Of a DNA stretch of 11,443 nucleotides, positions 1 to 11,443 are shown piece after piece. A program made the translations under genes and the position numbers. Position 1 is the stretch's first letter, and every line of letters starts with the position of its first letter. The notes beneath the pieces are model-generated. The model saw only the letters and a program-made list of their open reading frames with translations, was not told the DNA's origin and did not search any database. The stretch comes from Kiritimatiellales bacterium (GTDB taxonomy: Bacteria; Verrucomicrobiota; Kiritimatiellia; Kiritimatiellales; Tichowtungiaceae). The stretch lies in contig JAQUXG010000031.1 in the NCBI GenBank assembly GCA_028692515.1, positions 1 to 11,443 on the forward strand, written 5' to 3'.

Positions 1-281
1 CAACGGCCGCCGACGGGAGTGAAGGCCTGCGCATGATGAAAAAGCAGAAACCGGATCTACTCATCACCGACATCATGATGCCGGAAATGGACGGCCTCGA
101 AGTTCTTCAGAAAATCCGGGAGGATTTCCCCGGCCTGCCGGTGATCGCCGTCTCCGGCGGGATGCGAAACGGCACCATCAACTTTCTACCCGTCGCCGAA
201 AAAATCGGTGCCTGCTGCGCACTGTACAAACCGGTTAAACTGCCGGCGCTGCTCCGCGCGGTACAAGCCGCTCTGGCCTGA
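1..281 (+). CDS. Response regulator receiver domain, C-terminal part (partial, 5' end outside window)
   Basis: The reading frame is open from base 3 and has no start that needs to lie in the window. An internal ATG at 33 would cut into the conserved fold, so the gene most likely begins upstream. About 92 residues are visible. They show the DGSEGL helix typical of the end of alpha 1/beta 2, the phosphoacceptor aspartate in LLITDIMMPEMDG, the VIAVSGG strand carrying the conserved Ser/Thr-type position, and the KPV lysine near the end. These are the hallmark residues of a CheY-like receiver phosphorylated by a sensor histidine kinase. The protein stops soon after the last helix, with no DNA-binding or enzymatic output domain. 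It is therefore either a single-domain response regulator or the terminal receiver of a hybrid kinase; the missing 5' end would decide. No link to the downstream genes is visible beyond shared strand. Confidence 0.9.
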   Translation, partial: TAADGSEGLRMMKKQKPDLLITDIMMPEMDGLEVLQKIREDFPGLPVIAVSGGMRNGTINFLPVAEKIGACCALYKPVKLPALLRAVQAALA

Positions 282-338
282 ACACCGCCATTCAGGAACT
301 GCTCACCGGCGCAGTGCCGAACTGACCCGCGATCATTC

Positions 339-353
339 TTCCAAACATTGGAA
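339..353. repeat. Dispersed palindrome TTCCAANNNTTGGAA, perfect copy
   Basis: The sequence reads TTCCAA ACA TTGGAA, two perfect 6-nt arms with a 3-nt centre, followed by ACCCC. It lies in the gap between the receiver gene and the radical SAM gene and ends 7 nt before the 18-bp promoter box at 361. It is one of eight copies in this window. There is no T-run after it, so it does not look like an intrinsic terminator. Confidence 0.75.
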
Positions 354-360
354 ACCCCAC

Positions 361-406
361 GGTAGGGTTTTACCCCATGGCAGGTTTTTCGTCGGCCTTC
401 TATCCT
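361..406 (+). promoter_or_regulatory. Putative activator box plus -10 hexamer, promoter of the radical SAM gene
   Basis: The box GGTAGGGTTTTACCCCAT spans 361-378 and contains an inverted GGGT-NNN-ACCC core. A -10-like TATCCT lies at 401-406, 40 nt from box start to hexamer start. The same box with identical spacing recurs at 1986 and 4675. If the -10 is real, the box spans about -52 to -35, so it would replace a -35 element, as class II activator sites do; no good TTGACA is present. Transcription would begin around 412-414, at or next to the ATG at 414. Promoter function is inferred from the conserved spacing; the regulator is unknown. Confidence 0.65.
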
Positions 407-413
407 GAAGACG

Positions 414-1910
414 ATGAACGTTCTTCTAATATACCCCGAGTTCCCAGACACGTTCTGGAGCTTTAAGCATGCACTGGAATTCATCGGAAAACGTTCGTCG
501 CTGCCGCCGCTGGGTTTGCTGACGGTCGCAGCCATGCTCCCGCCGGAATGGCCGGTGCGACTCGTAGATACAAACGTCCAAAAACTGACCGACAAAGATC
601 TGTCGTGGGCCGACTGCGCCTTTATCAGTGCGATGGTGATTCAACGCGACCCCGCGCGGAAAATTGCCGAACGATGCAAGGCCGCAGGTCTTCTGGTGGT
701 TGCCGGCGGTCCGTTGTTCAGCACCGAAGCCGAGCAGTTGCCGGACGTGGATCATTTTATCCTGAACGAGGCCGAGCTGACCCTTCCGCCCTTTCTCAAG
801 GATCTGGCGCAGGGCTGCGCGAAGCGGCTCTATTCCTCTTCTGAGTTCGCAGATATCCAACAGACCCCGGTTCCCCGCTGGGATCTGCTGAAGCTTAAAC
901 GCTATGCCAGCATGAGCATTCAGTTTTCGCGCGGATGCCCGTTCAACTGCGATTTTTGTAACGTCACCGCGCTGCTCGGTCACCGGGTGCGCACCAAGAC
1001 CTCGGCGCAAATCATCGCCGAGCTCGACGGCCTGTATGCGGCGGGGTGGCGCAGCCAGGTGTTTTTTGTCGACGATAACTTCATCGGCAACAAACCTTTT
1101 CTGAAAACCGATCTGCTGCCCGCCCTGATTGCGTGGAGACAAGGCAAGGCCGGAAATATTTTCTGCACCGAAGCCTCAATTAATCTGGCGGACGATCCGG
1201 CACTGATGGAGCTGATGGTTCAAGCCGGGTTCACCACCGTATTTATCGGCATCGAAACGCCGGATGATGCCTGCCTGGTCGAGTGCAGCAAGATTCAGAA
1301 CAAAAACCGGAATCTGATCGAAGATGTGAAACGAATTCAGCGCGCGGGCCTTCAGGTGCAGGGAGGGTTCATCGTCGGCTTCGACAGCGACCAGCCATCC
1401 ATCTTTCAACGGCAGATCGACTTCATCCAGAAGAGCGGAATCGTCACGGCAATGGTCGGCCTGCTGCAGGCACCGCCCGGCACCCGGCTCTACGAGCGTA
1501 TGAAAACAGAGGGGCGGCTTTGCGCAGAAGCCACGGGCGACAATGCGGACGGAACGACCAACATTGTTCCGGCCATGAATATCGGAACACTCAAAGCAGG
1601 CTACCGACGGATTTTGGAAACCATCTATTCTCCGGGTCCATACTATCAGCGCATCCGCACCTTCCTGCGCGAATACCCGCCGCCGCGTGTGCGCGAAAAA
1701 CTCCAGCTCTCACACATCCTCGCATTCGTGCGCGCCTTTTTCCGGCTGGGCATTCTGGGCCGGGAGCGCGTTTATTACTGGAAGCTTATGCTTTGGACTC
1801 AGTTCCGCCATCCCCGACTGATTCCTCATGCCGTCCTGTTCGCCATTTACGGCTATCACTTCCGCAAGATCTGCGAACAGCAGGTGCTGCAAGAAGGTTT
1901 TAGGCCATAG
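414..1910 (+). CDS. B12-binding domain-containing radical SAM protein (DUF4070-type C-terminus)
   Basis: This 498-residue protein is a class B-type radical SAM enzyme. Residues 1-150 form a Rossmann-like B12-binding region starting MNVLLIYPEFPDTFWS, with the PPLGLLTVAAMLP and VVAGGPLF segments seen in this family; the DxHxxG cobalamin-ligand motif is absent. The 4Fe-4S-binding cysteines are Cys175, Cys179 and Cys182 in RGCPFNCDFCN. Further core features are FFVDDNFIGNK, TEASINLADD, FIGIETP and GGFIVGFD. The last ~130 residues match the DUF4070 type of tail. Members use S-adenosylmethionine to make a radical, often for methyl transfer or ring chemistry, but the substrate here cannot be read from sequence, and no substrate-pathway gene sits beside it. 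The start at 414 gives the expected N-terminus. It has no convincing Shine-Dalgarno and lies only 7 nt past the putative -10 box, so the message may be leaderless. No clear terminator follows. Confidence 0.93.
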   Translation: MNVLLIYPEFPDTFWSFKHALEFIGKRSSLPPLGLLTVAAMLPPEWPVRLVDTNVQKLTDKDLSWADCAFISAMVIQRDPARKIAERCKAAGLLVVAGGPLFSTEAEQLPDVDHFILNEAELTLPPFLKDLAQGCAKRLYSSSEFADIQQTPVPRWDLLKLKRYASMSIQFSRGCPFNCDFCNVTALLGHRVRTKTSAQIIAELDGLYAAGWRSQVFFVDDNFIGNKPFLKTDLLPALIAWRQGKAGNIFCTEASINLADDPALMELMVQAGFTTVFIGIETPDDACLVECSKIQNKNRNLIEDVKRIQRAGLQVQGGFIVGFDSDQPSIFQRQIDFIQKSGIVTAMVGLLQAPPGTRLYERMKTEGRLCAEATGDNADGTTNIVPAMNIGTLKAGYRRILETIYSPGPYYQRIRTFLREYPPPRVREKLQLSHILAFVRAFFRLGILGRERVYYWKLMLWTQFRHPRLIPHAVLFAIYGYHFRKICEQQVLQEGFRP

Positions 1911-1937
1911 GCTTTATGGTGGATCGCTTCCAGCCTG

Positions 1938-1978
1938 GTTCAAGTTTCCAATTTCCAGTTTCAAGTTTCACGTTTCAG
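1938..1978 (+). repeat. Degenerate 7-nt tandem repeat (TTTCAAG-like units)
   Basis: Six consecutive units keep a strict 7-nt period: GTTCAAG, TTTCCAA, TTTCCAG, TTTCAAG, TTTCACG and a final TTTCAG. The tract lies in the gap after the radical SAM gene and stops 7 nt before the promoter box at 1986. It could be neutral slippage-derived DNA or an upstream element for the adjacent promoter; nothing in the sequence decides between these. Confidence 0.7.
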
Positions 1979-1985
1979 CCCCCCC

Positions 1986-2031
1986 GGTAGGGTTACACCC
2001 CATATCCGAAAGAGACCGTCGCGCGTAGTCT
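1986..2031 (+). promoter_or_regulatory. Putative activator box plus -10 hexamer, promoter of the small membrane protein operon
   Basis: The box GGTAGGGTTACACCCCAT spans 1986-2003 and a -10-like TAGTCT lies at 2026-2031, again 40 nt from box start. The intervening bases differ from the other two copies. The predicted start of transcription is about 2038, giving a leader of roughly 33 nt with a strong AAAAGGAG ribosome-binding site before the ATG at 2071. This copy has the weakest -10 of the three, consistent with dependence on an activator. Confidence 0.65.
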
Positions 2032-2070
2032 GTTTTCAGAAAAGGGAACCACGCAACAAAAGGAGATCTT

Positions 2071-2259
2071 ATGCCTCTTATTAACATCATTATCACACTG
2101 GTCGTCGCCGGTGTCGGGCTGTGGGCGATTAACAAATACATCCCGATGGCCAAGCCGATTAAAAACATCATCAACATCGTGGTGGTGCTGGTTCTCGTCC
2201 TGTGGCTGCTGCAGGTCTTCGGCATCATCGGCAGCGTCAACAGCATCCGGGTCAGATAA
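2071..2259 (+). CDS. Small two-helix membrane protein, Thivi_2564 family
   Basis: This 62-residue protein is almost wholly hydrophobic. Residues 3-20 and about 33-54 form two membrane segments, joined by the short polar turn NKYIPMAKPIKN, and the C-terminus is basic (SIRVR). Its length, the PLINIIIT opening and the NKYIPM turn match the small Thivi_2564-type membrane proteins, whose biochemical role is unknown to me. It has a strong AAAGGAG ribosome-binding site. It is the first gene after the promoter box at 1986 and is followed after 20 nt by the secreted repeat protein, so the two are probably co-transcribed. An inner-membrane location is likely. Family assignment is from recognition, not a search. 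Confidence 0.85.
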   Translation: MPLINIIITLVVAGVGLWAINKYIPMAKPIKNIINIVVVLVLVLWLLQVFGIIGSVNSIRVR

Positions 2260-2279
2260 ACAAAAAGGAGAAATGAATC

Positions 2280-2816
2280 ATGAAAAAACTATGGATCAGT
2301 TTAGCAACTCTGCTCATCGCAGGCGGAGCGATGGCCGTCACCAGACCGTTCAATGCCAGCATCACGCCGAATGTCGCAGTTTACGACCGAACCGACCGCA
2401 TTGAAGGTCTGACCCTCAGCATCTGGGGCGAAAACGAACAGACATCGCTGGCTCTGGGTATCGTCAATGGAACGACAGGAAACAGCGCCGGCTTGAGCTG
2501 GGGGTATATCCTGAACTATGCCGAAAACTATAAAGGCATCCAGTGGGCGCCGATTAACTATGTGACAGGCGACTTCCTCGGATGGCAGGGCGCACTCGTC
2601 AACTACACCGGCGGCTCCATGAAAGGTCTGCAAACCGGGGTTGTCAACTGCGCGGGACTTCTGACCGGATTACAGCTCGGCCTGGTCAACTATGCTCAGG
2701 ACGGGCAAACCGGCGTGCAGATCGGTCTCGTCAACCTGATTCCTTCGAACCAGTGGTTCAGCGGACTTCCGGACGAACTGGCACCGGGAATGATCTTCGT
2801 TAACTGGTGCTTCTAA
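2280..2816 (+). CDS. Secreted protein with glycine/GLVN-type surface repeats
   Basis: This 178-residue protein begins with a clear Sec signal peptide: a KK n-region, a hydrophobic core, and a probable cut after AMA at residue 19. The mature part consists of degenerate repeats of about 20-25 residues with the pattern G-x-Q-x-G-[LIV]-[VI]-N-[YL], for example GLQLGLVNYA and GVQIGLVNLI. Earlier, more divergent copies read ALGIVNG and GALVNYTGG. Such alternating small/hydrophobic repeats are typical of beta-rich surface or outer-membrane-associated proteins (LA_2272-like surface repeat proteins). There is no lipobox cysteine and no large C-terminal domain. The ribosome-binding site is AAAAAGGAG, and the gene lies 20 nt after the small membrane protein, under the same promoter. 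A hairpin terminator follows. Its function is unknown; a role in the cell envelope is an inference from the signal peptide and repeats. Confidence 0.8.
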   Translation: MKKLWISLATLLIAGGAMAVTRPFNASITPNVAVYDRTDRIEGLTLSIWGENEQTSLALGIVNGTTGNSAGLSWGYILNYAENYKGIQWAPINYVTGDFLGWQGALVNYTGGSMKGLQTGVVNCAGLLTGLQLGLVNYAQDGQTGVQIGLVNLIPSNQWFSGLPDELAPGMIFVNWCF

Positions 2817-2835
2817 TCCCCGGTTTCGGAGCGTC

Positions 2836-2875
2836 GGTCGCAGAGCCCCCTCTGCGGCCGCTTTTCGTGTCTTTA
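2836..2875 (+). terminator. Putative intrinsic terminator after the surface-repeat gene
   Basis: Arms GGTCGCAGAG (2836-2845) and CTCTGCGGCC (2850-2859) enclose a CCCC loop and pair over 10 positions with a single G-U. A broken T-rich stretch follows (GCTTTTCGTGTCTTT). It lies 20 nt after the stop of the preceding gene. The interrupted T-tract means termination may be partial, allowing some read-through into transaldolase. Confidence 0.7.
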
Positions 2876-2969
2876 AGGTGTAAACGATGTGATGAAGATT
2901 GAACACAACAAAGGCGCGGGTGACAAAACAAGCAATTTGACTTTCCTGACCCGCAAGGAGAAAGGAAAT

Positions 2970-4094
2970 ATGAAAACGAATTCTCTGAAACAACTGGGAA
3001 CTCTCGGCCAATCCATCTGGCTGGACTACATCCGGAGAGACTTGATCACCAATGGTGAGCTCAAGCGTCTGATCGAAGAGGACGGATTGCGGGGAATGAC
3101 CTCAAACCCGGCGATTTTTGAAAAGGCCATTGATGAGAGCCATGATTACGACAAGGACATCCGCGCTCAGACGCTGGCGGGAAAAGATGCCGAATCGATT
3201 TACGAAACCATCAGCCAGCGCGATGTGCAAAGTGCCGCCGATGTATTCCGCCCTCTTTATGACCGGACAGACGGTGGCGACGGGTATGTCAGCCTGGAGG
3301 TAAATCCTCATCTGGCGCGCAACACCGATGGAACCATCGAAGAAGCCCGCCGGTTATGGAAAGCCCTCAACCGGCCCAACGTCTTCATCAAAGTTCCCGC
3401 CACGCGCGAGGGATTGCCTGCAATTCAGCAGCTCATCAGCGAAGGCATCAACATCAACGTGACGCTGATCTTCGGACTGCCGCGCTACCGGCAGGTGGCG
3501 GAAGCTTTCATCGCCGGACTTGAAGCGCGGGCGGCGCAGGGAAACCCTGTGACCCGCATTGCTTCCGTCGCCAGTTTTTTTGTCAGCCGCATTGATGCGC
3601 TCATTGATCCTCTGCTGGAAAAAATCGTTACGCAGGGCGGCGGGCCGGCAGACCTCGCGCAAAAGGTGCGCGGTCAAACTGCCATCGCCAGCGCTAAGAA
3701 GGCTTATCAAATCTACAAAGAGATCTTCGGCAGCGACCGGTTTAAAAAACTGTCGGATCAGGGCGCGCGCCCCCAGCGCCTGCTGTGGGCCAGCACCGGC
3801 ACCAAGAATCCGGAATACAGCGATGTGAAATATATCGACGCGCTGATCGGGCCGGACACGGTGAACACGGCTCCGCTGGAAACGATCAATGCTTATCGCG
3901 ATCACGGTGAACCGCTCGCCCGGCTTGAACAAAACGTTGGCGAAGCGGCGCGCCGGCTGGCACTGCTTCCAGTCCTTGGAATTGACATCGACCAGCTAAC
4001 GCAGCAGCTCGAAGATGAAGGGGTCGAAAAATTTAACAAGCCGTTCGACGCACTGATGACGGCTCTGGCACAGGATAAATCACCAAGAGGCTGA
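2970..4094 (+). CDS. tal: Transaldolase
   Basis: This protein transfers a dihydroxyacetone unit between sugar phosphates in the non-oxidative pentose phosphate pathway (sedoheptulose 7-phosphate and glyceraldehyde 3-phosphate to erythrose 4-phosphate and fructose 6-phosphate). It has 374 residues, the length of the longer bacterial Tal subgroup. Visible landmarks are LGQSIWLDYIRRDLI near the start, GMTSNPAIFEKAI (residues 42-54), SLEVNPHLA, and NVFIKVPAT, whose Lys141 should be the Schiff-base lysine. INVTLIFGLPRY, SVASFFVSRID and LLWASTGTKNP follow in the usual order. The start at 2970 is preferred over an in-frame ATG at 2889 because it has AAGGAG upstream and gives the family N-terminus. 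No copy of the 18-bp promoter box is found upstream, so expression may come from its own unseen promoter or from read-through of the terminator at 2836. A 41-residue membrane peptide follows after 14 nt. Confidence 0.95.
   Translation: MKTNSLKQLGTLGQSIWLDYIRRDLITNGELKRLIEEDGLRGMTSNPAIFEKAIDESHDYDKDIRAQTLAGKDAESIYETISQRDVQSAADVFRPLYDRTDGGDGYVSLEVNPHLARNTDGTIEEARRLWKALNRPNVFIKVPATREGLPAIQQLISEGININVTLIFGLPRYRQVAEAFIAGLEARAAQGNPVTRIASVASFFVSRIDALIDPLLEKIVTQGGGPADLAQKVRGQTAIASAKKAYQIYKEIFGSDRFKKLSDQGARPQRLLWASTGTKNPEYSDVKYIDALIGPDTVNTAPLETINAYRDHGEPLARLEQNVGEAARRLALLPVLGIDIDQLTQQLEDEGVEKFNKPFDALMTALAQDKSPRG
3967..3981. repeat. TTCCAANNNTTGGAA palindrome, one mismatch, inside tal
   Basis: The sequence reads TTCCAG TCC TTGGAA, with one arm base changed. 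It lies inside the transaldolase frame and encodes part of LPVLGI, near the C-terminus. Because ordinary transaldolases have a similar hydrophobic-LGID stretch here, the protein does not look disrupted. Confidence 0.6.
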
Positions 4095-4108
4095 AAAGGA
4101 GGATCGTT

Positions 4109-4234
4109 ATGATGCCTCATCTGAACGGATGGATGGGCGGATGGGCCGGCCGCGGAATGTGGATTTGGCCGATACTCGTCGTGCTGGTAGTCGTTGTGCT
4201 GATCGTGGGGATTGAAAAGCTGTTCAGGAAATAA
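4109..4234 (+). CDS. 41-residue single-pass membrane peptide
   Basis: The frame starts with MMPHLNGWMGGWAGRG, a Gly/Trp/Met-rich head. It continues into one strongly hydrophobic helix (WIWPILVVLVVVVLIVGI, residues 18-35) and a basic end (EKLFRK), and stops at 4234. A near-perfect ribosome-binding site, AAAGGAGG at 4095-4102, sits 6 nt before the ATG and 14 nt downstream of tal, which strongly supports translation and co-transcription with tal. The Gly/Trp-rich head followed by a membrane helix recalls many tiny bacterial membrane proteins, but I recognise no named family. It is the second tiny membrane protein in this neighbourhood. Too small for an enzyme; it may modulate or anchor a partner, but this is not shown by the sequence. 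Confidence 0.75.
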   Translation: MMPHLNGWMGGWAGRGMWIWPILVVLVVVVLIVGIEKLFRK

Positions 4235-4325
4235 TCATCTGTTCGCTACCCGCCCACGAAATGAACTGCTACACGAGAAAGGAATTGCCCGCGCTGAAAG
4301 CGTAAAGCGCGGCGCAATAGAGATT

Positions 4326-4340
4326 TACCAAACATTGGAA
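4326..4340. repeat. TTCCAANNNTTGGAA palindrome, one mismatch
   Basis: The sequence reads TACCAA ACA TTGGAA and has the same ACA centre as the copy at 339. It is followed by GAACCC. It lies in the gene-free region downstream of the tal operon. Confidence 0.6.
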
Positions 4341-4447
4341 GAACCCGCCTTGGCTCTGAATGATTTTGTTGACCCCTCTTTTTGTGATTTTTTGTGGCCA
4401 AAACCTGATCCGCACTGAATGTCTCCCTCGGAGAGGTCGCCCTACCT

Positions 4448-4462
4448 TTCCAACCCTTGGAA
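4448..4462. repeat. TTCCAANNNTTGGAA palindrome, perfect copy
   Basis: The sequence reads TTCCAA CCC TTGGAA and is followed by ACCC, as at 339. It lies in the gene-free region upstream of phosphoketolase, about 225 nt before the promoter box. Confidence 0.75.
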
Positions 4463-4572
4463 ACCCACCCCGGCCTACGGCGGACGCGGACGGCCACCCG
4501 ATGGAGGGGGTTTTCCTTGCGTTCTCTGCGCTCTTTCGCGGCTAAACATCTTTCTCCTCGGAGCCCCTGGTA

Positions 4573-4594
4573 AAAGAACTGTACATTGTTCTTT
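4573..4594. repeat. Inverted repeat AAAGAAC-N8-GTTCTTT
   Basis: Two perfect 7-nt arms (4573-4579 and 4588-4594) flank an 8-nt centre that contains TGTACA. It lies about 80 nt upstream of the phosphoketolase activator box. It could be an operator for a dimeric regulator or a weak hairpin; there is no other copy in this window to support either. Confidence 0.45.
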
Positions 4595-4674
4595 ATGAAT
4601 GTTTTGGCGGCAAGAGGCACTAAACAGGCACGTGAGCGCGTCGGCTTTTCGCTATAGGTTTTTTTAACCTCCCT

Positions 4675-4720
4675 GGTAGGGTTTCACCCCATGGAGTGCT
4701 GACACCTCGCGGCATATACT
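4675..4720 (+). promoter_or_regulatory. Putative activator box plus -10 hexamer, promoter of phosphoketolase
   Basis: The box GGTAGGGTTTCACCCCAT spans 4675-4692 and a good -10, TATACT, lies at 4715-4720. The offset is 40 nt, exactly as in the copies at 361 and 1986. The leader is about 22 nt and carries AAGGAG 8 nt before the ATG at 4749. No -35 hexamer of the TTGACA type is seen at the right distance. This is the best of the three promoters by -10 match. Confidence 0.7.
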
Positions 4721-4748
4721 CACTATCCAAATATAAGGAGACGTCAAA

Positions 4749-7106
4749 ATGATCACACCGGAACTGCTCCATAAAATGGATGCCTACTGGCGCGCCGCGA
4801 ATTATCTGTCGGTCGGCCAGCTCTATCTCCGCGACAATCCGCTGCTGCGCGAGCCTCTAAAGCCGGAGCATGTGAAATCGATGCTGCTCGGACATTGGGG
4901 TACCACGCCCGGTCAGAATTTTATTTACGTCCACTTGAACCGCGTCATCAAAAAATTCGATCTGGATATGATCTATATTTCCGGCCCCGGCCACGGCGGC
5001 CCGGCACTGGTCGGCAATACCTATCTCGAAGGCACCTACAGCGAAATCTATCCGGAGATCACGCAGGATGAGAGCGGACTGAAAAAACTGTTCAAGCAGT
5101 TTTCTTTTCCCGGCGGGATTCCCAGCCATGTTTCGCCGGAATGTCCGGGATCGATTCACGAAGGCGGCGAGCTGGGCTATTCGCTCAGCCATGCCTTTGG
5201 TGCCGCATTCGATAATCCGGAATTGATCGTCGCCTGCGTCGTCGGCGACGGCGAAGCCGAAACGGGCCCGCTGGCCACGGCCTGGCACTCCAATAAATTC
5301 CTCAACCCGATCGCCGACGGCGCGGTTTTGCCGATTTTGCACCTCAACGGCTACAAGATCGCCAATCCGGCGGTGCTCGCACGCATTGAACCCGAAGAGC
5401 TCGATCAGCTTCTTCGCGGCTACGGCTGGACGCCTTACTTTGTGGAGGGCGACGATCCGGAAACCATGCACCAGCTCATGGCCGAAGTGTTGGAAAGGAC
5501 CATTGTCGAAATCCGGCAGATTCAAAACAACGCCCGGACGAATCATGCCCCCGACCGTCCGCGCTGGCCGATGATTGTCCTGCGCTCTCCCAAAGGGTGG
5601 ACCGGCCCGAAAGAAGTCGACGGGGTGCCCAACGAAGGGACCTTCCGCTCTCATCAGATTCCTGTTCTGGTGGACGCGGATCATCCCGGGCATCTCCAAC
5701 TGCTGGAAACCTGGCTGAAAAGCTACAGACCCGAAGAGCTCTTCGATGAGAGCGGACGACTCCTTCCCGAACTGGCCGAGCTCGCGCCGCACGGCGAGCG
5801 CCGGATGGGCGCCAATCCGCACGCGAACGGCGGATTGCTGTTACAAGATCTGGTTCTGCCTGACTTCCGGAACTATGCCGTGGATGTACCGTCGCCGGGA
5901 TCCGTGCAGGCCGCCGATACACACGAGCTGGGCGAATTCCTGCGTGAAGTGGTTACACTCAATAAGGAACAGCGCAACTTCCGGATTTTCGGCCCCGACG
6001 AAACGCTGTCCAACCGGCTGAATGCCGTGTTTGAAGTCACCGACCGGCAGTGGGACGCGCGAGCGCAGGTGAACGATGAGTTTCTGAAAACAGACGGTCG
6101 CGTTATGGAAATGCTGAGCGAGCATCAATGTGAAGGCTGGCTTGAAGGCTATCTGCTGACCGGCAGGCACGGACTCTTCAACTGCTACGAGGCATTCATC
6201 CACATCATTGACTCCATGTTCAATCAGCACGCCAAGTGGCTGAAGGTCAGCGCGGAGCTTCCGTGGCGCAGAAAGATTGCCTCGCTGAATTACCTGCTTG
6301 CTTCGCACGTCTGGCAGCAGGCGCACAACGGATTTACGCATCAGGACCCCGGCTTCATCGACCACGTCGTGAACAAGAAGGCGTCGGTCGTGCGCGTCTA
6401 TCTGCCGCCAGACGCCAACAGCCTTCTCTCCGTTTGGGATCATTGCCTGCGGAGCCGCCACTACGTCAACGTCGTCATCGCGGGCAAATACCAGGCCCCG
6501 CAATGGTTGTCCATGGATGAGGCGGTTGGGCACTGCACGAAAGGGATCGGTATCTGGGAATGGGCCGGCTGCAATCGAGATATTGAACCGGATGTCGTCA
6601 TGGCCTGCTGCGGCGACGTGCCCACTCTGGAAACGCTCGCCGCCGTTTCCATCCTTCGGAAACATCTGCCCGAACTGAAAGTCCGCGTGATCAATGTCGT
6701 TGATCTCATGAAGCTTCAACCGCAATCCGAGCACCCGCACGGATTGAGCGACAAGGAATTCGATGCCTTGTTTACCAAAGATAAACCGATCGTCTTCGCG
6801 TTCCACGGCTATCCGTGGCTGGTGCACCGGCTGACCTATCGCCGCACGAATCACGACGGCATGCACGTGCGCGGCTACAAGGAAGAAGGAACCATCACCA
6901 CCTATTTCGATATGACCGTGCTCAACGATCTGGATCGTTTCCATTTGGTCATGGACGTCATCCACCGGCTTCCAAAGCTTGGAACCCAAGGTGCCAAGCT
7001 GAAAAAAATGATGGAGAACAAACTCATCGAGCATAAACAGTACATCGACGAACACGGTCAGGACATGCCGGAGATCCGCAATTGGAAATGGAGCCGCCCG
7101 ACGTAA
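4749..7106 (+). CDS. xfp: Phosphoketolase (xylulose 5-phosphate / fructose 6-phosphate)
   Basis: This 785-residue thiamine-diphosphate enzyme splits xylulose 5-phosphate, and often fructose 6-phosphate, with inorganic phosphate. The products are acetyl phosphate plus glyceraldehyde 3-phosphate or erythrose 4-phosphate. Length and order of motifs are those of the full-length family: [18 protein letters not shown] (residues 48-65), GPGHGGPA (79-86), [41 protein letters not shown], and the cofactor-binding GDGEAETGP (167-173 core). [10 protein letters not shown] and, near the end, [10 protein letters not shown] follow. The enzyme is cytoplasmic and provides a route from sugar phosphates to acetyl phosphate without pyruvate. 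It shares intermediates with transaldolase encoded just upstream. Acetate kinase or phosphotransacetylase, the usual consumers of acetyl phosphate, are not in the window. The start is supported by AAGGAG and the family N-terminus. Regulation is probably through the box at 4675. Whether it prefers xylulose or fructose phosphate cannot be read reliably here. Confidence 0.97.
6970..6984. repeat. TTCCAANNNTTGGAA palindrome, perfect copy, inside xfp
   Basis: The sequence reads TTCCAA AGC TTGGAA within the phosphoketolase frame, encoding LPKLG in the conserved region before the C-terminus, and is followed by CCC. Ordinary phosphoketolases have a similar P-x-LG stretch here, so the copy may reflect codon choice on an existing peptide, not an insertion. 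Confidence 0.65.
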
Positions 7107-7142
7107 GGATGAATTCAGGGTTTCTGATTTCCCGGGATCCGC

Positions 7143-7148
7143 TATACT
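7143..7148 (+). promoter_or_regulatory. Possible -10 hexamer for a leaderless ogt transcript
   Basis: TATACT lies 8 nt before the ATG at 7157, so transcription from it would start at or next to the start codon. No ribosome-binding site is visible between the hexamer and the ATG. A -35 element at the usual distance is poor (TTTCTG at best) and the 18-bp activator box is absent, so this call is tentative. Confidence 0.4.
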
Positions 7149-7156
7149 GCGCGGCA

Positions 7157-7588
7157 ATGAAACCGGTTGAATTCAAAACGACGTGGGGAACGATCCGGCT
7201 GACGCTGAAAGACGGCAAAGTGGTCGCTCTTGATCTGCCGCATCTGAAAAACATGCCGCGCCAACCTTTCTCAATTGAAAAGTTCCAGACCTTGGAAAAA
7301 TTAATCGGGAACTTTCCAATGTTTGGAAAACCCGAAGGAACAGATTTTCAAAAAGCGGTCTGGAGCGAGATGCAAAAAATTCCGCGCGGTCAAACGCGCA
7401 CCTACAGCGAAATCGCCGCAGCCATCGGACGACCGAAAGCGGTGCGCGCGGTCGGCACTGCCTGCGGCGCGAATCCTCTGCCGCTCTTTATTCCCTGCCA
7501 CCGCGTCACCGCCAAAAACGGTCTCGGCGGCTTCGGCAGCGGTCTGCCGTGGAAAAAGCTCCTGCTGGAAATGGAAGGTGCGTTATGA
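7157..7588 (+). CDS. ogt: Methylated-DNA--[protein]-cysteine S-methyltransferase
   Basis: This 143-residue DNA-repair protein removes alkyl groups from O6-alkylguanine by transferring them irreversibly to its own cysteine. The C-terminal catalytic domain is complete: GTDFQKAVWSEMQKIPRGQT, TYSEIAAAIGRPKAVRAVG with the DNA-binding helix-turn-helix and arginine finger, then PCHRV with acceptor Cys114 and the GLGGFGSGLPWKKLLLEMEG tail. The N-terminal domain is short, and the linker to the catalytic domain (about residues 43-59) is encoded by DNA carrying two copies of the TTCCAANNNTTGGAA palindrome. The start at 7157 fits the family; an in-frame upstream ATG at 7082 overlaps phosphoketolase and adds unrelated residues. 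The gene starts 50 nt after phosphoketolase and its stop overlaps the next start by 4 nt (ATGA), implying translational coupling with the ferredoxin gene. No N-terminal Ada regulatory domain is present. Confidence 0.93.
   Translation: MKPVEFKTTWGTIRLTLKDGKVVALDLPHLKNMPRQPFSIEKFQTLEKLIGNFPMFGKPEGTDFQKAVWSEMQKIPRGQTRTYSEIAAAIGRPKAVRAVGTACGANPLPLFIPCHRVTAKNGLGGFGSGLPWKKLLLEMEGAL
7283..7297. repeat. TTCCAANNNTTGGAA palindrome, one mismatch, inside ogt
   Basis: The sequence reads TTCCAG ACC TTGGAA, with the same arm substitution as the copy in tal at 3967. It encodes FQTLE in the linker of the alkyltransferase. It lies 16 nt from a second, perfect copy. Confidence 0.6.
7314..7328. repeat. TTCCAANNNTTGGAA palindrome, perfect copy, inside ogt
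   Basis: The sequence reads TTCCAA TGT TTGGAA, followed by AACCC. It encodes FPMFG at residues 53-57 of the alkyltransferase, in the variable linker before the catalytic domain. Unlike the copy in xfp, this peptide is not one I expect from the family, so it could be an inserted element tolerated in a loop. Confidence 0.75.
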
Positions 7589-8121
7589 AACAACAGATGA
7601 CCCCTTATGTGTGTCATATTTTTGTCTGCACCAACGTGCGCGAAAATAATCCGGAAAACCCCGGGTGCGGATCCAAAGGCGGCGGTGAGCTGAAAGACCT
7701 TCTGAAAAAGGCCGTAAACGAGCGCGGCTGGAAAGGCAAAGTCCGCGTTTCCACCTCCAGCTGTATGGGCCTCTGCGGAACCGGGCCAAACGTTGTGCTC
7801 TATCCGCAGGGCATCCATTTTTCCGCCGTCACAGAGAATGACGTTCCATTGATTATGGATGCTCTACATAAGTTGTTGCCAGAAAACAGAAAAATCTGGT
7901 TTCCGGCGAAGACGTTTGGCTGGGGCTGGGGGCCGCCCTGCAGCTGGCAGGGCTGGGTGGTTCTGCTGATTTACATCGCTCTGCTTGCATCCGCGTCATG
8001 GCTGATGCCGCTTAACGAGTCGCCAGCCCTCTACACCGCCTGTGTGACCGGCTTAACTATAGTGCTCATCATCATCTGCATTTGGAAAGGCGGACGCCCG
8101 CGCTGGCGCTGGGGAAAATAG
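7585..8121 (+). CDS. Thioredoxin-like 2Fe-2S ferredoxin fused to a two-helix membrane anchor
   Basis: Residues 1-100 form a thioredoxin-like 2Fe-2S ferredoxin. The four likely cluster ligands are Cys15 (FVCTN), Cys28 (PGCGSKGG), Cys60 and Cys64 (SCMGLCGTGPNVVLYPQG), a pattern shared with the small Clostridium/Aquifex-type ferredoxins and NuoE. After a short linker comes FGWGWGPPCSWQGW (residues 111-124), then two membrane helices at about 123-141 and 149-167 and a basic end (RPRWRWGK). The redox head should therefore be held at the cytoplasmic face of the membrane. The ATG at 7585 overlaps the ogt stop (ATGA) and has GGAAGG upstream; this start avoids the ogt-overlapping ATG at 7549. The aromatic GWGWG-P-x-x-WQGW block looks like a conserved membrane-entry module joined to a ferredoxin. 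The electron-transfer partner is unknown and no obvious redox enzyme is encoded alongside. Confidence 0.85.
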   Translation: MKQQMTPYVCHIFVCTNVRENNPENPGCGSKGGGELKDLLKKAVNERGWKGKVRVSTSSCMGLCGTGPNVVLYPQGIHFSAVTENDVPLIMDALHKLLPENRKIWFPAKTFGWGWGPPCSWQGWVVLLIYIALLASASWLMPLNESPALYTACVTGLTIVLIIICIWKGGRPRWRWGK

Positions 8122-8124
8122 TTT

Positions 8125-8139
8125 TTCCAATGTCTGGAA
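8125..8139. repeat. TTCCAANNNTTGGAA palindrome, one mismatch
   Basis: The sequence reads TTCCAA TGT CTGGAA, followed by CCC, with the same TGT centre as the copy at 7314. It begins 4 nt after the stop codon of the ferredoxin gene, at a place where a terminator would be expected, but no T-run follows the arms directly. Confidence 0.6.
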
Positions 8140-8176
8140 CCCGGCGCGGCCGGATTTCATGATTTTTTCAAGGGGC

Positions 8177-8227
8177 TGTAGCCGCGATCCATGATCGCAG
8201 AGGCGGGGTCACGGCCCCCGCCCTACA
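8177..8227. repeat. REP-like element with potential three-way junction fold
   Basis: An outer stem TGTAG (8177-8181) and CTACA (8223-8227) encloses two perfect hairpins. These are GCGATC-CAT-GATCGC (8184-8198) and GGCGGGG-N7-CCCCGCC (8202-8222). The nested arrangement would fold into a cloverleaf-like structure in single-stranded DNA or RNA. It lies between the convergent ferredoxin and zinc-ribbon/EIIA genes, a typical site for REP/BIME-type dispersed elements. Only one copy is in this window. Confidence 0.6.
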
Positions 8228-8305
8228 AACCACGCCGTTCGATCACGGGTGGAGTTGGTTGCAGATGCACCTGCCCGCAGTGCTACAACGTTGCAGGCGG
8301 GAGGC

Positions 8306-8346
8306 GCGGAGAATGCCGCTGTATTTTCATACCGCAAACTCTCCGC
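8306..8346. other. Inverted repeat between convergent genes
   Basis: Arms GCGGAGA (8306-8312) and TCTCCGC (8340-8346) enclose a 27-nt loop. A smaller hairpin, GCCGC-AGAC-GCGGC, lies at 8350-8363. Both are downstream of the minus-strand zinc-ribbon/EIIA gene and could help end its transcript, but neither is followed by a T-run on that strand. The rest of 8228-8378 shows no coding frame. Confidence 0.35.
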
Positions 8347-8378
8347 AACGCCGCAGACGCGGCCAAATCCGTCCGGGA

Positions 8379-9221
8379 TCAGATGATGTGTTTCTTGGTG
8401 GCTTTAACGAGGATCTTCCAGAGCTCTTCCTGCGTTTTGGCAGCCAGCAGGGCGTCGCGCGCTTCTTTCTTGGCGAAGCTCTGCGTGAGGCCGGAGAGCA
8501 ACTTGAGGTAGAAGGCGCTGGCGGCGGTCGGAATGACCATGTAGAAGAAGATTTTGGTTTTCGTGGTTCCGCCAAAATCGACTCCCTTTTTGCTGATGCC
8601 CAGCGTGAGCGTCAGCCCGCCGCCTTCGACCCCGCGAACGTGCGGAAAGGCAATGCCGTGTTCGACGGCGGTGGAAACGATCGCTTCACGGCGCAGAGCG
8701 GCATCATGCAGATCGTCACAGCTTTCAATATAGCCCTGCTCGCGCAGGTTGTTGCACATTTCGAGCAACACGTCTTCGCGCGTGGTTCCTTTGAGAGACA
8801 CCACCATCAGTTCCGGCGCGGAAAAGCGTTCGATGCCGCGTTTGACGGGGTCTCCCCAGCGGCGGCGCGGCGAGTTGCGCGTGAGCGGAACATCCGGCGA
8901 ATAAAGAATGCGGGTGCAGTTGGGGCAGCGGTTGAGTTCGTCGCCGCCGTGGATGCTGTTGACCATGGTTTTGGTCAGGGCATAGCCGCATCCGGAACAG
9001 TTGTCGCCGGTGATCGGAACAATCGCTTCAATGCTCTTTTGGAGCAGGCGGTTGAAGTGCGATTTGAGTTCGACCGGGAGTTCGCCCGCGAGAGTTGAGA
9101 TGCTCTTGTCGAGCTGCTCGAGACGGGCTTTGGGCATCGAGGCCTGCTGCTGCGCGCGGGCAACAATGAGATCCTGTAACTGGATCAGGTGTTTAATCGT
9201 GTGGGTTTCTTTGCGGACCAT
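8379..9221 (-). CDS. Zinc-ribbon / PTS EIIA (type 2) fusion protein
   Basis: This 280-residue protein has two parts. Residues 1-70 are helical and probably a short coiled coil, leading to a C4 zinc ribbon with Cys75, Cys78, Cys99 and Cys102 (CSGCGY and CPNCTRILY), like the CT398/HP0958-type ribbon that normally ends long coiled coils. Residues about 133-280 match the fructose/mannitol-type EIIA domain, with the phosphorylatable His194 in HGIAFPHVRG. In this family EIIA accepts phosphate from HPr and passes it to EIIB, or serves as a regulatory sensor (PtsN-like). No EIIB/EIIC permease is nearby, so a regulatory role is more likely than sugar uptake; this is inference. The start has AAGGAG 8 nt upstream. 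It follows thrH by 19 nt on the same strand, suggesting an operon. Confidence 0.85.
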   Translation of the reverse strand: MVRKETHTIKHLIQLQDLIVARAQQQASMPKARLEQLDKSISTLAGELPVELKSHFNRLLQKSIEAIVPITGDNCSGCGYALTKTMVNSIHGGDELNRCPNCTRILYSPDVPLTRNSPRRRWGDPVKRGIERFSAPELMVVSLKGTTREDVLLEMCNNLREQGYIESCDDLHDAALRREAIVSTAVEHGIAFPHVRGVEGGGLTLTLGISKKGVDFGGTTKTKIFFYMVIPTAASAFYLKLLSGLTQSFAKKEARDALLAAKTQEELWKILVKATKKHII

Positions 9222-9240
9222 GGGGCTTTCTCCTTAAACT

Positions 9241-9849
9241 TCAAACTCTGACACTCGCATCAATGAATGCGCTCAATAATTCTTCGTAGGACGTTGTGAC
9301 TGGAAATTGCGGAAATTCATCGATTACGTTCTGCGGCGGGCAGAAAAGGATGCCTGCGTCGGCTTCGGCGAGCATGGACGTGTCGTTATAGGAATCGCCG
9401 GCGGCGATGACCTTGAATTTCAAATGGTGGAGGGCCTTGACCCCTTCGCGCTTCTGGTCGGGCATGCGCAGGTGGTAGTCGGCGACGCGGCCGTCGCCGT
9501 CGATGTGCAGGCGGTGGCACAGCAGGGTCGGATGGCCGAGTTGCTTCATTAGCGGCGCGGCGAAGTCGTAGAAGGTGTCCGAAAGGATGATGACCTGAAA
9601 TTTTTCGCGCAACTGGTTGAGGAAGTCGTGCGCGCCGGGTAGCGGACCCATTCCGGCGATAACGGCCTGAATATCGGCGAGCTTCAGGCGATGTTCGTCC
9701 AGAATGCGCAAACGCTGGCGCATCAACACGTCATAATCGGGAATATCGCGGGTGGTAGCGCGTAATTCCTCGATTCCGGTGCGTTCGGCCACGTTGATCC
9801 AAATCTCCGGAACCAGCACCCCTTCCAAATCTAAACAGGCAATCTGCAT
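9241..9849 (-). CDS. thrH: ThrH-type phosphoserine phosphatase / homoserine phosphotransferase
   Basis: This 202-residue HAD-superfamily protein matches ThrH in size and motifs. Motif I is DLEGVLVPEIW, with the nucleophile Asp7 and Glu9 in place of the usual second aspartate, the signature of ThrH. Motif II is ILSDTFYDF with Ser90. Motif IV is GDSYNDTSML with Asp152 and Asp156 for magnesium. Known ThrH proteins dephosphorylate phosphoserine and can move its phosphate to homoserine, linking serine and threonine synthesis. The start at 9849 is chosen over an in-frame ATG at 9870 because AAAGGA lies about 6 nt upstream and the protein then begins MQIACLDLEG as in the family. It is the first gene of a minus-strand pair with the zinc-ribbon/EIIA gene 19 nt downstream. 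It diverges from the DEAD-box helicase across an AT-rich gap (9850-10015) that should hold both promoters, though I cannot fix them with confidence. Confidence 0.92.
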   Translation of the reverse strand: MQIACLDLEGVLVPEIWINVAERTGIEELRATTRDIPDYDVLMRQRLRILDEHRLKLADIQAVIAGMGPLPGAHDFLNQLREKFQVIILSDTFYDFAAPLMKQLGHPTLLCHRLHIDGDGRVADYHLRMPDQKREGVKALHHLKFKVIAAGDSYNDTSMLAEADAGILFCPPQNVIDEFPQFPVTTSYEELLSAFIDASVRV

Positions 9850-10015
9850 GAAAATCCTTTCAGCCCCCAAAGCGCCTGATTTTAAATTCCAATTTATTTA
9901 TAGCAAAATAATTAGGAAACCTTTTTAATTCCCACCCTCTTAATGGATTTGCCGGTTCCGGTCGCACTTTTGCCCTTCAACCAGCAAACGGAAATCAGAA
10001 ATCGGAAAATTGTTC

Positions 10016-11443
10016 ATGCCTTCTTTTATCGAAAAAATCGGAAAACTGTTCAAAAAGCAGGAAGTTTATCGTCCCTCGCAGACCCAAGCCGCCACCAAAC
10101 CAGCCGGCGACGCAAAGAAACCGGCGCAAAAACCGCAGCCTAAAGCCGACGCGCCCCGCAAGCACACCACCCCCCGCGGCGGAAAAAAACGCACCCCGGA
10201 GCAGGCAAACCGTCCGGCACCGGAAACCGCACAACGCCCCGCCCCGCCCCGCAAACCGGTCGAGCCGTGGGATCCCGCCACCTTTAGCGTCGAACCCAAA
10301 GAAGGCAAAACCCGCTTTCAGGATATGAACCTGCCGGATGATGTGCTCCACGCCATCGCCGATTTGAACTTTCAGTACTGCACCCCGATTCAGGCCGAAA
10401 TCCTGCCGTTGACGCTTCAAGGCAAGGATATGGCCGGCAAAGCGCAGACCGGAACCGGCAAAACCGCCGCTTTCCTGCTCGGCATCCTCACCCGCTTTAT
10501 TAACAACAAACAGGAAGCGCCGACCCCCGGATGTCCCCGTGCACTGATTCTCGCGCCGACCCGCGAACTCGCCATGCAGATTCGCGATGACGCCGAAAAA
10601 CTCAGCAAATACACTCCGATCAAAACCGTCGCCATCTACGGCGGCATCGACTATGACAAACAGCGCCGCGTGCTCGAAGAACCCGTCGACATCATCGTCG
10701 CCACTCCGGGCCGCCTGATCGACTTCGCCAGCCAGGGCGTCATCAATCTGCGCGAAGTCGAAGTCCTCGTCATCGACGAAGCCGACCGCATGCTCGACAT
10801 GGGCTTCATCCCCGACGTCCGAAAAATCATCTACAAAACCCCGCCCAAAGAAAACCGCCAGACCCTGCTCTTCAGCGCCACGCTCGACGACGCCGTCATG
10901 CGCCTCTCCGCCGCCTGGATGACCGATCCCGGTAAAATTGAAATTGAGCCCGACAAAAACGCCACCAAGCTCATCGACCAGCAGGTCTACATCGTCACCG
11001 ACGACCAGAAATTCGCCCTGCTCTACAACATCCTCAAAAAAGAGGTCGGCGACAGTTCCGCGCTCATCTTCACCAACCGCCGCGACCAGACCGAACGCCT
11101 CTCGGACGCCCTATTCCGTTATGGCATCGACTGCGAAATCCTCTCCGGCGCTGTTGCCCAGAACAAACGCCAGCGCATTCTGTCCGACTTTAAAGAAGGC
11201 CGCTGCAAACTCGTCGTCGCCACCGACGTCGCCGGTCGCGGCATCCACGTCGACGACATCACCCACGTCATCAACTTCAACATCCCCTCGCAGCCCGACG
11301 ATTATGTTCACCGCATCGGCCGCACCGGCCGCGCCGGAAAAAAAGGTATCTCCGTCACCTTCGCCTGCGAAAAAGAATCCTTTGAACTGCCCGCCATTGA
11401 AGAACTCATCGGCAAACGCCTCCCCTGCATCCAGCCGGAAGAA
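10016..11443 (+). CDS. DEAD-box ATP-dependent RNA helicase (partial, 3' end outside window)
   Basis: The frame is open from the ATG at 10016 to the last base, giving 476 residues. Residues 1-90 are a basic, Lys/Pro/Ala-rich, probably disordered extension. The helicase core follows with a Q motif (YCTPIQAEILP), motif I AQTGTGKT (143-150), Ia PTRELA, Ib TPGR, and II DEAD (254-257). Motif III is SAT (287-289), then IV IFTNR, V ATDVAGRGIH and VI HRIGRTGRAG. It should use ATP to open short RNA duplexes, as RhlE/RhlB-like proteins do in RNA decay, ribosome assembly or cold adaptation. The C-terminal tail, which would separate subfamilies, is cut off. The ribosome-binding site is weak (CGGAAAA at best). 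The upstream 166 bp contains an AT-rich block around 9880-9940 that may be a promoter or a long leader. Confidence 0.95.
   Translation, partial: MPSFIEKIGKLFKKQEVYRPSQTQAATKPAGDAKKPAQKPQPKADAPRKHTTPRGGKKRTPEQANRPAPETAQRPAPPRKPVEPWDPATFSVEPKEGKTRFQDMNLPDDVLHAIADLNFQYCTPIQAEILPLTLQGKDMAGKAQTGTGKTAAFLLGILTRFINNKQEAPTPGCPRALILAPTRELAMQIRDDAEKLSKYTPIKTVAIYGGIDYDKQRRVLEEPVDIIVATPGRLIDFASQGVINLREVEVLVIDEADRMLDMGFIPDVRKIIYKTPPKENRQTLLFSATLDDAVMRLSAAWMTDPGKIEIEPDKNATKLIDQQVYIVTDDQKFALLYNILKKEVGDSSALIFTNRRDQTERLSDALFRYGIDCEILSGAVAQNKRQRILSDFKEGRCKLVVATDVAGRGIHVDDITHVINFNIPSQPDDYVHRIGRTGRAGKKGISVTFACEKESFELPAIEELIGKRLPCIQPEE

Follow-up and report, generated by a model that had tools for sequence, protein, structure and literature searches.

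A conserved 18-bp box at a fixed distance from a -10 hexamer, and a candidate NarL/FixJ-type response regulator to read it, in Kiritimatiellales and related bacteria

The DNA considered here is an 11,443-nt stretch (positions 1 to 11,443 of the forward strand of contig JAQUXG010000031.1) from the assembly GCA_028692515.1 of a Kiritimatiellales bacterium, and this whole stretch is referred to as the window. It carries three copies of an 18-bp box, GGTAGGGTTWYACCCCAT, starting at 361, 1986 and 4675, with a TANNNT hexamer beginning 40 nt on from the start of each. The copies are invariant at 16 of 18 positions, their differences being confined to positions 10 and 11. Within three mismatches, 0.01 box matches are expected in the window, and a total of three was reached by none of 200 shuffles. 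A chance repeat as the origin of the box is ruled out by these shuffles and by a phylum-wide reversed control, which returned zero matches. The initial annotation of the window had described the three boxes, with TATCCT, TAGTCT and TATACT exactly 40 nt from their starts, and both boxes and hexamers (at 401, 2026 and 4715) are found at precisely these coordinates. On the evidence set out below, it is highly probable that the box is bound by a NarL/FixJ-type response regulator, which would activate transcription from class II promoters. The boxes, hexamers and genes of the region are as follows; here and throughout, G, C and L numbers label genomes, contigs and fetched loci, respectively, and G008 is a relative of the source organism.

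361..378, + strand: box 1, GGTAGGGTTTTACCCCAT, predicted response-regulator binding site
401..406, + strand: -10 hexamer TATCCT, starting 40 nt after the start of box 1; 6 of 6 bases kept in G008
414..1910, + strand: B12-binding/radical SAM enzyme with DUF4070, putative target of box 1 (profile matches)
1986..2003, + strand: box 2, GGTAGGGTTACACCCCAT; 17 of 18 positions kept in G008
2026..2031, + strand: -10 hexamer TAGTCT, starting 40 nt after the start of box 2; 5 of 6 bases kept in G008
2071..2259, + strand: Thivi_2564 family small membrane protein, first gene behind box 2 (NF041949, 3.7e-20)
2280..2816, + strand: protein with LA_2272-type surface repeats (NF047436, 4.4e-16); a homologue keeps this place in G008
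2970..4094, + strand: transaldolase (PF00923, NF002881)
4109..4234, + strand: 41-amino-acid membrane peptide MMPHLNGW...KLFRK (from the translation); a relative occurs in L271 (1e-07)
4675..4692, + strand: box 3, GGTAGGGTTTCACCCCAT; 16 of 18 positions kept in G008
4715..4720, + strand: -10 hexamer TATACT, starting 40 nt after the start of box 3; 4 of 6 bases kept in G008
4749..7106, + strand: phosphoketolase, putative target of box 3 (XFP_N/XFP/XFP_C, 2e-183)

The radical SAM enzyme, small membrane protein and phosphoketolase that had been proposed as targets are retained as putative ones, whilst the run of genes behind box 2 is longer than was described: the Thivi_2564 protein, the LA_2272-repeat protein, the transaldolase and the 41-amino-acid peptide would together form one operon. 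For the transaldolase, the listed open reading frame opens at 2889, and the start is placed at the ATG at 2970, which is accompanied by a ribosome-binding site. A peptide similar to the 41-amino-acid example, as judged by eye, is found behind a box in L156, and the phosphoketolase orthologue of G008 likewise sits directly behind a box. Across 80 stretches from other named genomes, 12 fetched loci and the window, the first gene to follow a box is the B12-binding/radical SAM DUF4070 enzyme at four loci and the Thivi_2564 protein at five, the window being included in each count.

For the spacing between box and hexamer, only boxes found by box sequence were counted, so as to avoid circularity, giving a set of 30 (six from the source genome, 13 from G008, five each from G005 and G033, and one from G003). 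TANNNT lies at +40 in 23 of these and at +41 in two, with no other offset from 20 to 89 exceeding two (p about 1e-41). Within the source genome the hexamer is at +40 for five of six boxes, the sixth having CAGAAT, and for two of three when those of the window are set aside. A collection of named genomes provides 38 further boxes not selected for a hexamer (from 80 of 111 stretches), of which 13 display TANNNT at +40 and eight at +41, with three at most elsewhere. The aligned sites can be summarized as approximately GGTAGGGTTWYACCCCATRGY, which is symmetric as TRGGGT-N3-ACCCYA and thus constitutes an 18-bp imperfect inverted repeat. Taking the hexamer as the -10 element, the centre of the box falls at -43. 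The best match to TTGACA at a spacing of 15–18 has four of six bases in only two of the 30 boxes, three in 21 and fewer in the remaining seven, such that the absence of a TTGACA-like -35, as first annotated, holds for 28 of the 30. The arrangement is that of a class II promoter, with a site near -41/-43 at a fixed distance from the -10 and a -35 that is poor or absent.

Comparison of three orthologous promoters between the window and G008 reveals where sequence is retained. The box keeps 16, 17 and 16 of its 18 bases and the hexamer 6, 5 and 4 of its six, whilst the 30 bases upstream keep 5, 8 and 10, and the 22 spacer bases 10, 13 and 10. In the source genome, and at the loci of relatives, genes stand on the same strand behind the boxes. 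The scan of the source and related genomes, which had been proposed as a possible refutation of the initial annotation, found the box–hexamer offset kept and same-strand genes behind the boxes. A regulon with an activator at the class II position (about -52 to -35), as first suggested, is supported by the fixed +40 offset, the retention of box and -10 amid diverged DNA, the same-strand genes and a recurrence that is phylum-wide. Comparative sequence analysis marks the box as a genuine regulatory site and the genes that share it as a regulon. In five genomes (G394, G339, G119, G250 and G257) two or more boxes or box-like copies occur in tandem with a 23-bp period, an arrangement suggestive of several regulator dimers binding next to one another.

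With regard to its distribution, the box is found three more times in the source assembly (1.81 Mb, 288 contigs, 86 % complete) outside of the window, each time with one mismatch. These copies precede an lmo0937-family membrane protein (C53), a 764-codon open reading frame that is taken for a glycosyltransferase (C238, minus strand) and a small uncharacterized open reading frame (C238, plus strand). Allowing three mismatches adds two matches, which is the level of noise since the reversed control gives one. Amongst 40 relatives, at up to two mismatches, G008 has 13 boxes, G005 five and G033 six; matches in many of the other genomes are scarcely commoner than those of the reversed control. As the control also matches several order-level genomes, the two-mismatch scan is noisy, and the counts that follow therefore allow one mismatch at most unless stated. 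On this basis 44 of the 387 phylum genomes scanned contain the box followed by 22 nt and TA, with up to 22 copies per genome (22 in G133, 18 in G286); where boxes stand in tandem, the TA matched for the first may be that of the second. The reversed pattern is found in none of the 387.

In the named collection at least 111 stretches match. Those listed include 63 from Verrucomicrobiota, 14 from Lentisphaerota, 12 from Kiritimatiellota and five from Planctomycetota, alongside three from Wallbacteria (a single genome), one that bears the label Acetobacteraceae and 13 to which the taxonomy used assigns no phylum; the tally represents a sample, and some genomes contribute several stretches to it. 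The 13 boxes of G008 all lie on one strand of one contig within 62 kb (L038-L041; G008:C7:11815-74213), so that the regulon is concentrated in a single region, together with genes for sulfur transport, DnaJ, GH1, an MGDG-synthase-like protein and sensor kinases.

The genes behind the boxes were drawn from 200 distinct sites (the 111 stretches, 12 fetched loci and the window), which reduce to 181 non-redundant first genes. Their calling is heuristic, and family tallies cover the 25 commonest families each, so that counts for rarer families are lower bounds. BON proteins account for 15 of the 181 and ice-binding-like proteins for 11, each appearing once at most amongst 90 control genes from the same loci. 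Entericidin is represented at least three times, and CsbD, OsmC and superoxide dismutase at least twice each, whilst PRC-barrel, HisKA_3, CheB/CheR, RsbU_N, KaiC, dodecin, phosphoketolase and transaldolase provide one to four first genes each amongst the families listed. Transaldolase, GH1 and KaiC also appear twice each in the 90 control genes, and are therefore regulon neighbours as much as targets. With BON, CsbD, OsmC, entericidin and superoxide dismutase, the regulon contains genes typical of general stress. This content suggests, as the least certain step of the interpretation, that the regulon combines a metabolic switch with a response to general or envelope stress; the inducing condition is a guess from the target genes.

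A candidate for the protein that reads the box is provided by G008, where the box at 74213 heads an operon encoding a 49-amino-acid lmo0937-family protein (NF033488), a CheB-CheR-PAS protein, a PAS-HisKA_3 kinase and a response regulator. The last of these, at L041:9085-9771 on the minus strand, consists of a receiver followed by a GerE/LuxR-type helix–turn–helix (PF00072, 4e-27; PF00196, 9e-21). By eye, the receiver appears to retain the phospho-acceptor Asp as well as the acidic, Ser/Thr and Lys residues, in LLAEDH, VVMDVAMP, ILSAY and FLLKQ. The adjoining gene matches HisKA_3 at 1.6e-14, and a kinase homologue is present in the gene run of the regulator in 10 of 11 mapped loci, G053 being the exception. 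Of 15 regulator loci mapped, ten have a box that precedes the operon of the regulator and shares its strand (G008, G005, G033, G172, G191, G194, G286, G133, G206 and G094, the last with two mismatches); none is seen in this place in G175, G112, G178 and G003, and G053 is ambiguous. The input proteins encoded at these loci vary, comprising CheB/CheR-PAS, RsbU_N-like (a Pfam match of only 2e-05) and, in G206, KaiC. A KaiC-like gene also sits directly behind a box in a Lentisphaerae genome (L116:869-2008), whilst that of G206 lies between kinase genes ahead of the regulator (L275); such a protein is a possible clock-type ATPase feeding the regulator system. G133, the genome with 22 boxes, has five regulators in the score range of this family, and three of the four loci examined (L227, L300, L308 and L315) contain a box.

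Box and regulator also occur together across genomes. At E ≤ 1e-55 the regulator is found in 48 of 387 genomes, which include 33 of the 44 box genomes where 5.5 would be expected (Fisher p 7e-27), a figure compiled from hand-made genome lists and uncorrected for shared descent. In a subset of the regulator matches, comprising 32 loci fetched solely by regulator similarity, 17 have a box (up to two mismatches) within about 1.5 kb, compared with 0 of 46 loci of other NarL-type regulators. As many of the 46 come from genomes with few or no boxes, a within-genome control was added, using ten genomes that have both box and regulator (G008, G005, G133, G172, G191, G194, G206, G286, G150 and G178). 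Here a box lies within about 1.5 kb at seven of 14 regulator loci, some of which are also amongst the 32, versus 0 of 16 other NarL-type loci.

The regulators concerned form a recognizable clade. Upon comparison of 92 regulators (after de-duplication, and with rows covering fewer than 185 residues dropped), the 43 best-scoring (≥ 205 bits) all carry EKHR in the recognition helix, as opposed to none of the other 49, and at this border the score falls from 205 to 184 bits. A tree built from the receiver domain only, and hence excluding the recognition helix, places the 43 on one side of a branch with an SH-aLRT of 97, albeit from a short search with few columns. The reader of the box is thus very likely an EKHR-type NarL/FixJ response regulator encoded with a HisKA_3 kinase, and the activator that the initial annotation had left open may, on these sequence comparisons, now be named with good confidence. 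The window has a response-regulator fragment of its own, in that positions 33-281 encode the C-terminal part of a receiver domain (PF00072) entering from the contig edge. As a candidate for the box regulator it was rejected, having no GerE domain and a similarity of merely 6e-06.

In the source assembly, a search for the EKHR-family regulator found none, and this is the first of several observations that weigh against the assignment, along with the shared descent within the co-occurrence figure and the heuristic calling of first genes. The absence here is probably an assembly effect, because the contig breaks before the position of the regulator. C53, which carries a box and the lmo0937 gene, stops within the start of CheB/CheR-PAS, and has 127 identical end bases in common with C30; the latter carries a CheB/CheR-PAS gene 79 % identical to that of G008, and a 298-codon open frame matching the kinase (7e-103), and then ends. 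In G008 the regulator comes next after the kinase.

Counting the source genome, 11 of the 44 box genomes have no match to the regulator at E ≤ 1e-55; at E ≤ 1e-25 eight of these have more distant homologues only, and the source genome, G147 and G119 have none. The nearest regulators in G303, G169 and G386 are NarL-type homologues of about 42 % identity without EKHR, and G303 has five boxes in an assembly that is 95 % complete with no EKHR-family regulator. For these three genomes, either the regulator is missing from the assemblies or a different one reads the box. Their loci L249-L251 (G169, G303 and G386) harbour NarL-type regulators with VETHR in place of EKHR, which are candidates for other readers of the box. 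Conversely, strict boxes are absent from 15 of the 48 regulator genomes, of which nine belong to a single family (f46). A relaxed box still finds no match in ten of the 15, and its seven matches in the other five are close to noise because the reversed control gives three in the same 15 genomes. The exceptions are G154 and G189, in which the sequence GGTAGGGTTTTACCTTAT occurs on the strand of the regulator gene at distances upstream of 1.3 kb and 4.9 kb, respectively, suggesting a drifted site. Finally, the other seven of the 14 regulator loci in the within-genome control have no box within 1.5 kb. The box genomes without the regulator, including G303, G169 and G386, give some room to the notion that the box is a class II activator site read by another transcription factor, the EKHR regulator being simply a target or cluster neighbour; a regulator gene that was no more than a target would equally produce the association of box and locus. 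The excess of shared genomes, together with the complete lack of boxes at the 46 and 16 other NarL-type loci, makes this unlikely, other kinds of DNA-binding protein near boxes not having been searched for. It also counts against another reader that short inverted repeats near -42 are a common kind of binding site for NarL-type regulators.

Other accounts of the box leave out an activator altogether. Inverted repeats close to promoters can serve as operators, here for a repressor sited just upstream of the promoter, and G187 has two back-to-back boxes on opposite strands (L233). The distance from box to -10 is, however, constant to within one or two bases, there is no usable -35, an absence that a repressor would not require, and the extra copies at a 23-bp period in G394 and G339 lie upstream rather than over the start site, such that a repressor operator seems very improbable. 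A conserved upstream element at a fixed distance from a conserved hexamer could likewise resemble the promoter of an alternative sigma factor of the extracytoplasmic function (ECF) type. In promoters of that kind the -35 element is 15-19 nt from the -10 and has no dyad, whereas the box is 18 bp long, dyad-symmetric and ends 22 nt before the hexamer, which is too far for a -35, and the TANNNT hexamer is of the sigma-70 type; given the 22-nt gap and the dyad symmetry, this explanation was rejected as scarcely credible. The abundance of copies in genomes such as G133 and G286 might also bring to mind a small repeat or mobile element devoid of regulatory role. Identity is, however, largely limited to the box and -10, with orthologous promoters keeping 16-17 of 18 box bases as against 5-10 of 30 before the box and 10-13 of 22 in the spacer; such an origin was rejected, and its probability is close to nil.

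A separate palindrome, TTCCA-N4-TTGGAA, has 672 forward matches in the 1.81-Mb source genome and none in the reversed control; in the stretches fetched from relatives its frequency is lower by a factor of five to ten. The window contains seven copies of TTCCA-N5-TGGAA (339, 3967, 4448, 6970, 7283, 7314 and 8125), and several of the listed palindrome pairs, including 7283/7314, are exactly 31 bp apart.

If the EKHR regulator does read the box, the following course of events may be envisaged. Input proteins of the PAS/CheB-CheR or RsbU_N-like kind (or KaiC in one genome) would feed into the sensor kinase, which would phosphorylate the regulator, and a dimer of the latter would bind the box at about -52 to -35 and recruit RNA polymerase to a promoter having only a -10. 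With a box ahead of the kinase–regulator operon, the system would be subject to positive autoregulation. The products, including BON, CsbD, OsmC, entericidin, lmo0937, Thivi_2564, superoxide dismutase, phosphoketolase and transaldolase proteins, would then bring about a general or envelope stress response together with a metabolic switch.

Such a system would work like known NarL-type class II systems. In common with NarL, FixJ, DosR/DevR and VraR, it has a receiver and GerE domain, an inverted-repeat site near -42 and a HisKA_3 partner kinase, and the best solved relatives of the regulator by sequence are VraR, DesR, NarL and DevR. It differs from these in the EKHR of the recognition helix, and in the IES-VQ-TI tail that most members of the clade display. 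The NarL site is TACYYMT, and TRGGGT-N3-ACCCYA matches neither this nor the DosR site. For the best 25 of 104 NCBIfam models of named regulators (MctR, GacA/UvrY, NarL, UhpA and others) the regulator falls below the cut-off, its best match being to MctR at 195.3 versus 300 bits. The DosRS system of mycobacteria, which governs a dormancy/hypoxia regulon, offers a parallel in which one NarL-type two-component system controls a set of stress genes, as is proposed here. Unlike DosRS, the box site is different, the input proteins are CheB/CheR-PAS, RsbU_N-like and KaiC, and a domain search of the G008 kinase found no GAF domain.

The kinds of target overlap with those of the general stress responses governed by sigma-B, sigma-S and PhyR-sigma-EcfG, in that CsbD, OsmC, BON, entericidin and superoxide dismutase are shared. 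These families, as well as ElaB, to which there is a weak match amongst the target proteins, are linked to sigma-B/sigma-S. Unlike in those responses, the switch here would be a DNA-bound activator at sigma-70-type promoters, without a change of sigma factor. For lmo0937, the tables of a study of a Listeria sigma-B mutant contain negative log2 changes (PMC7690807).

A search of the literature, mostly open-access, returned no description of the box, its regulator or such a regulon in these phyla, and five exact strings of 15-17 bases from the box had no match in 5.39 million open-access papers. Most Verrucomicrobiota, Lentisphaerae and Kiritimatiellae are represented chiefly by metagenomes, with little known of how their stress genes are switched on. 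The box recurs ahead of similar genes across the Planctomycetes–Verrucomicrobia–Chlamydiae (PVC) group. Together with its regulator it may represent the general stress response of much of this group, here the Verrucomicrobiota with Kiritimatiellae and Lentisphaerae and some Phycisphaerae, a proposal whose chances we regard as evenly balanced. In it, a single self-amplifying two-component system with exchangeable inputs (CheB/CheR-PAS, RsbU_N-like or KaiC) would take the place of an alternative sigma factor, and the regulon would in some species form one island. The lmo0937 and Thivi_2564 families, for which no function is known, and the B12/radical SAM DUF4070 enzymes would thereby be placed in a common response. 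With a readable sign in the DNA, a candidate regulator and a list of targets, such a response may be scored in any assembled genome, and the mechanism by which these phyla respond to stress would become directly testable.

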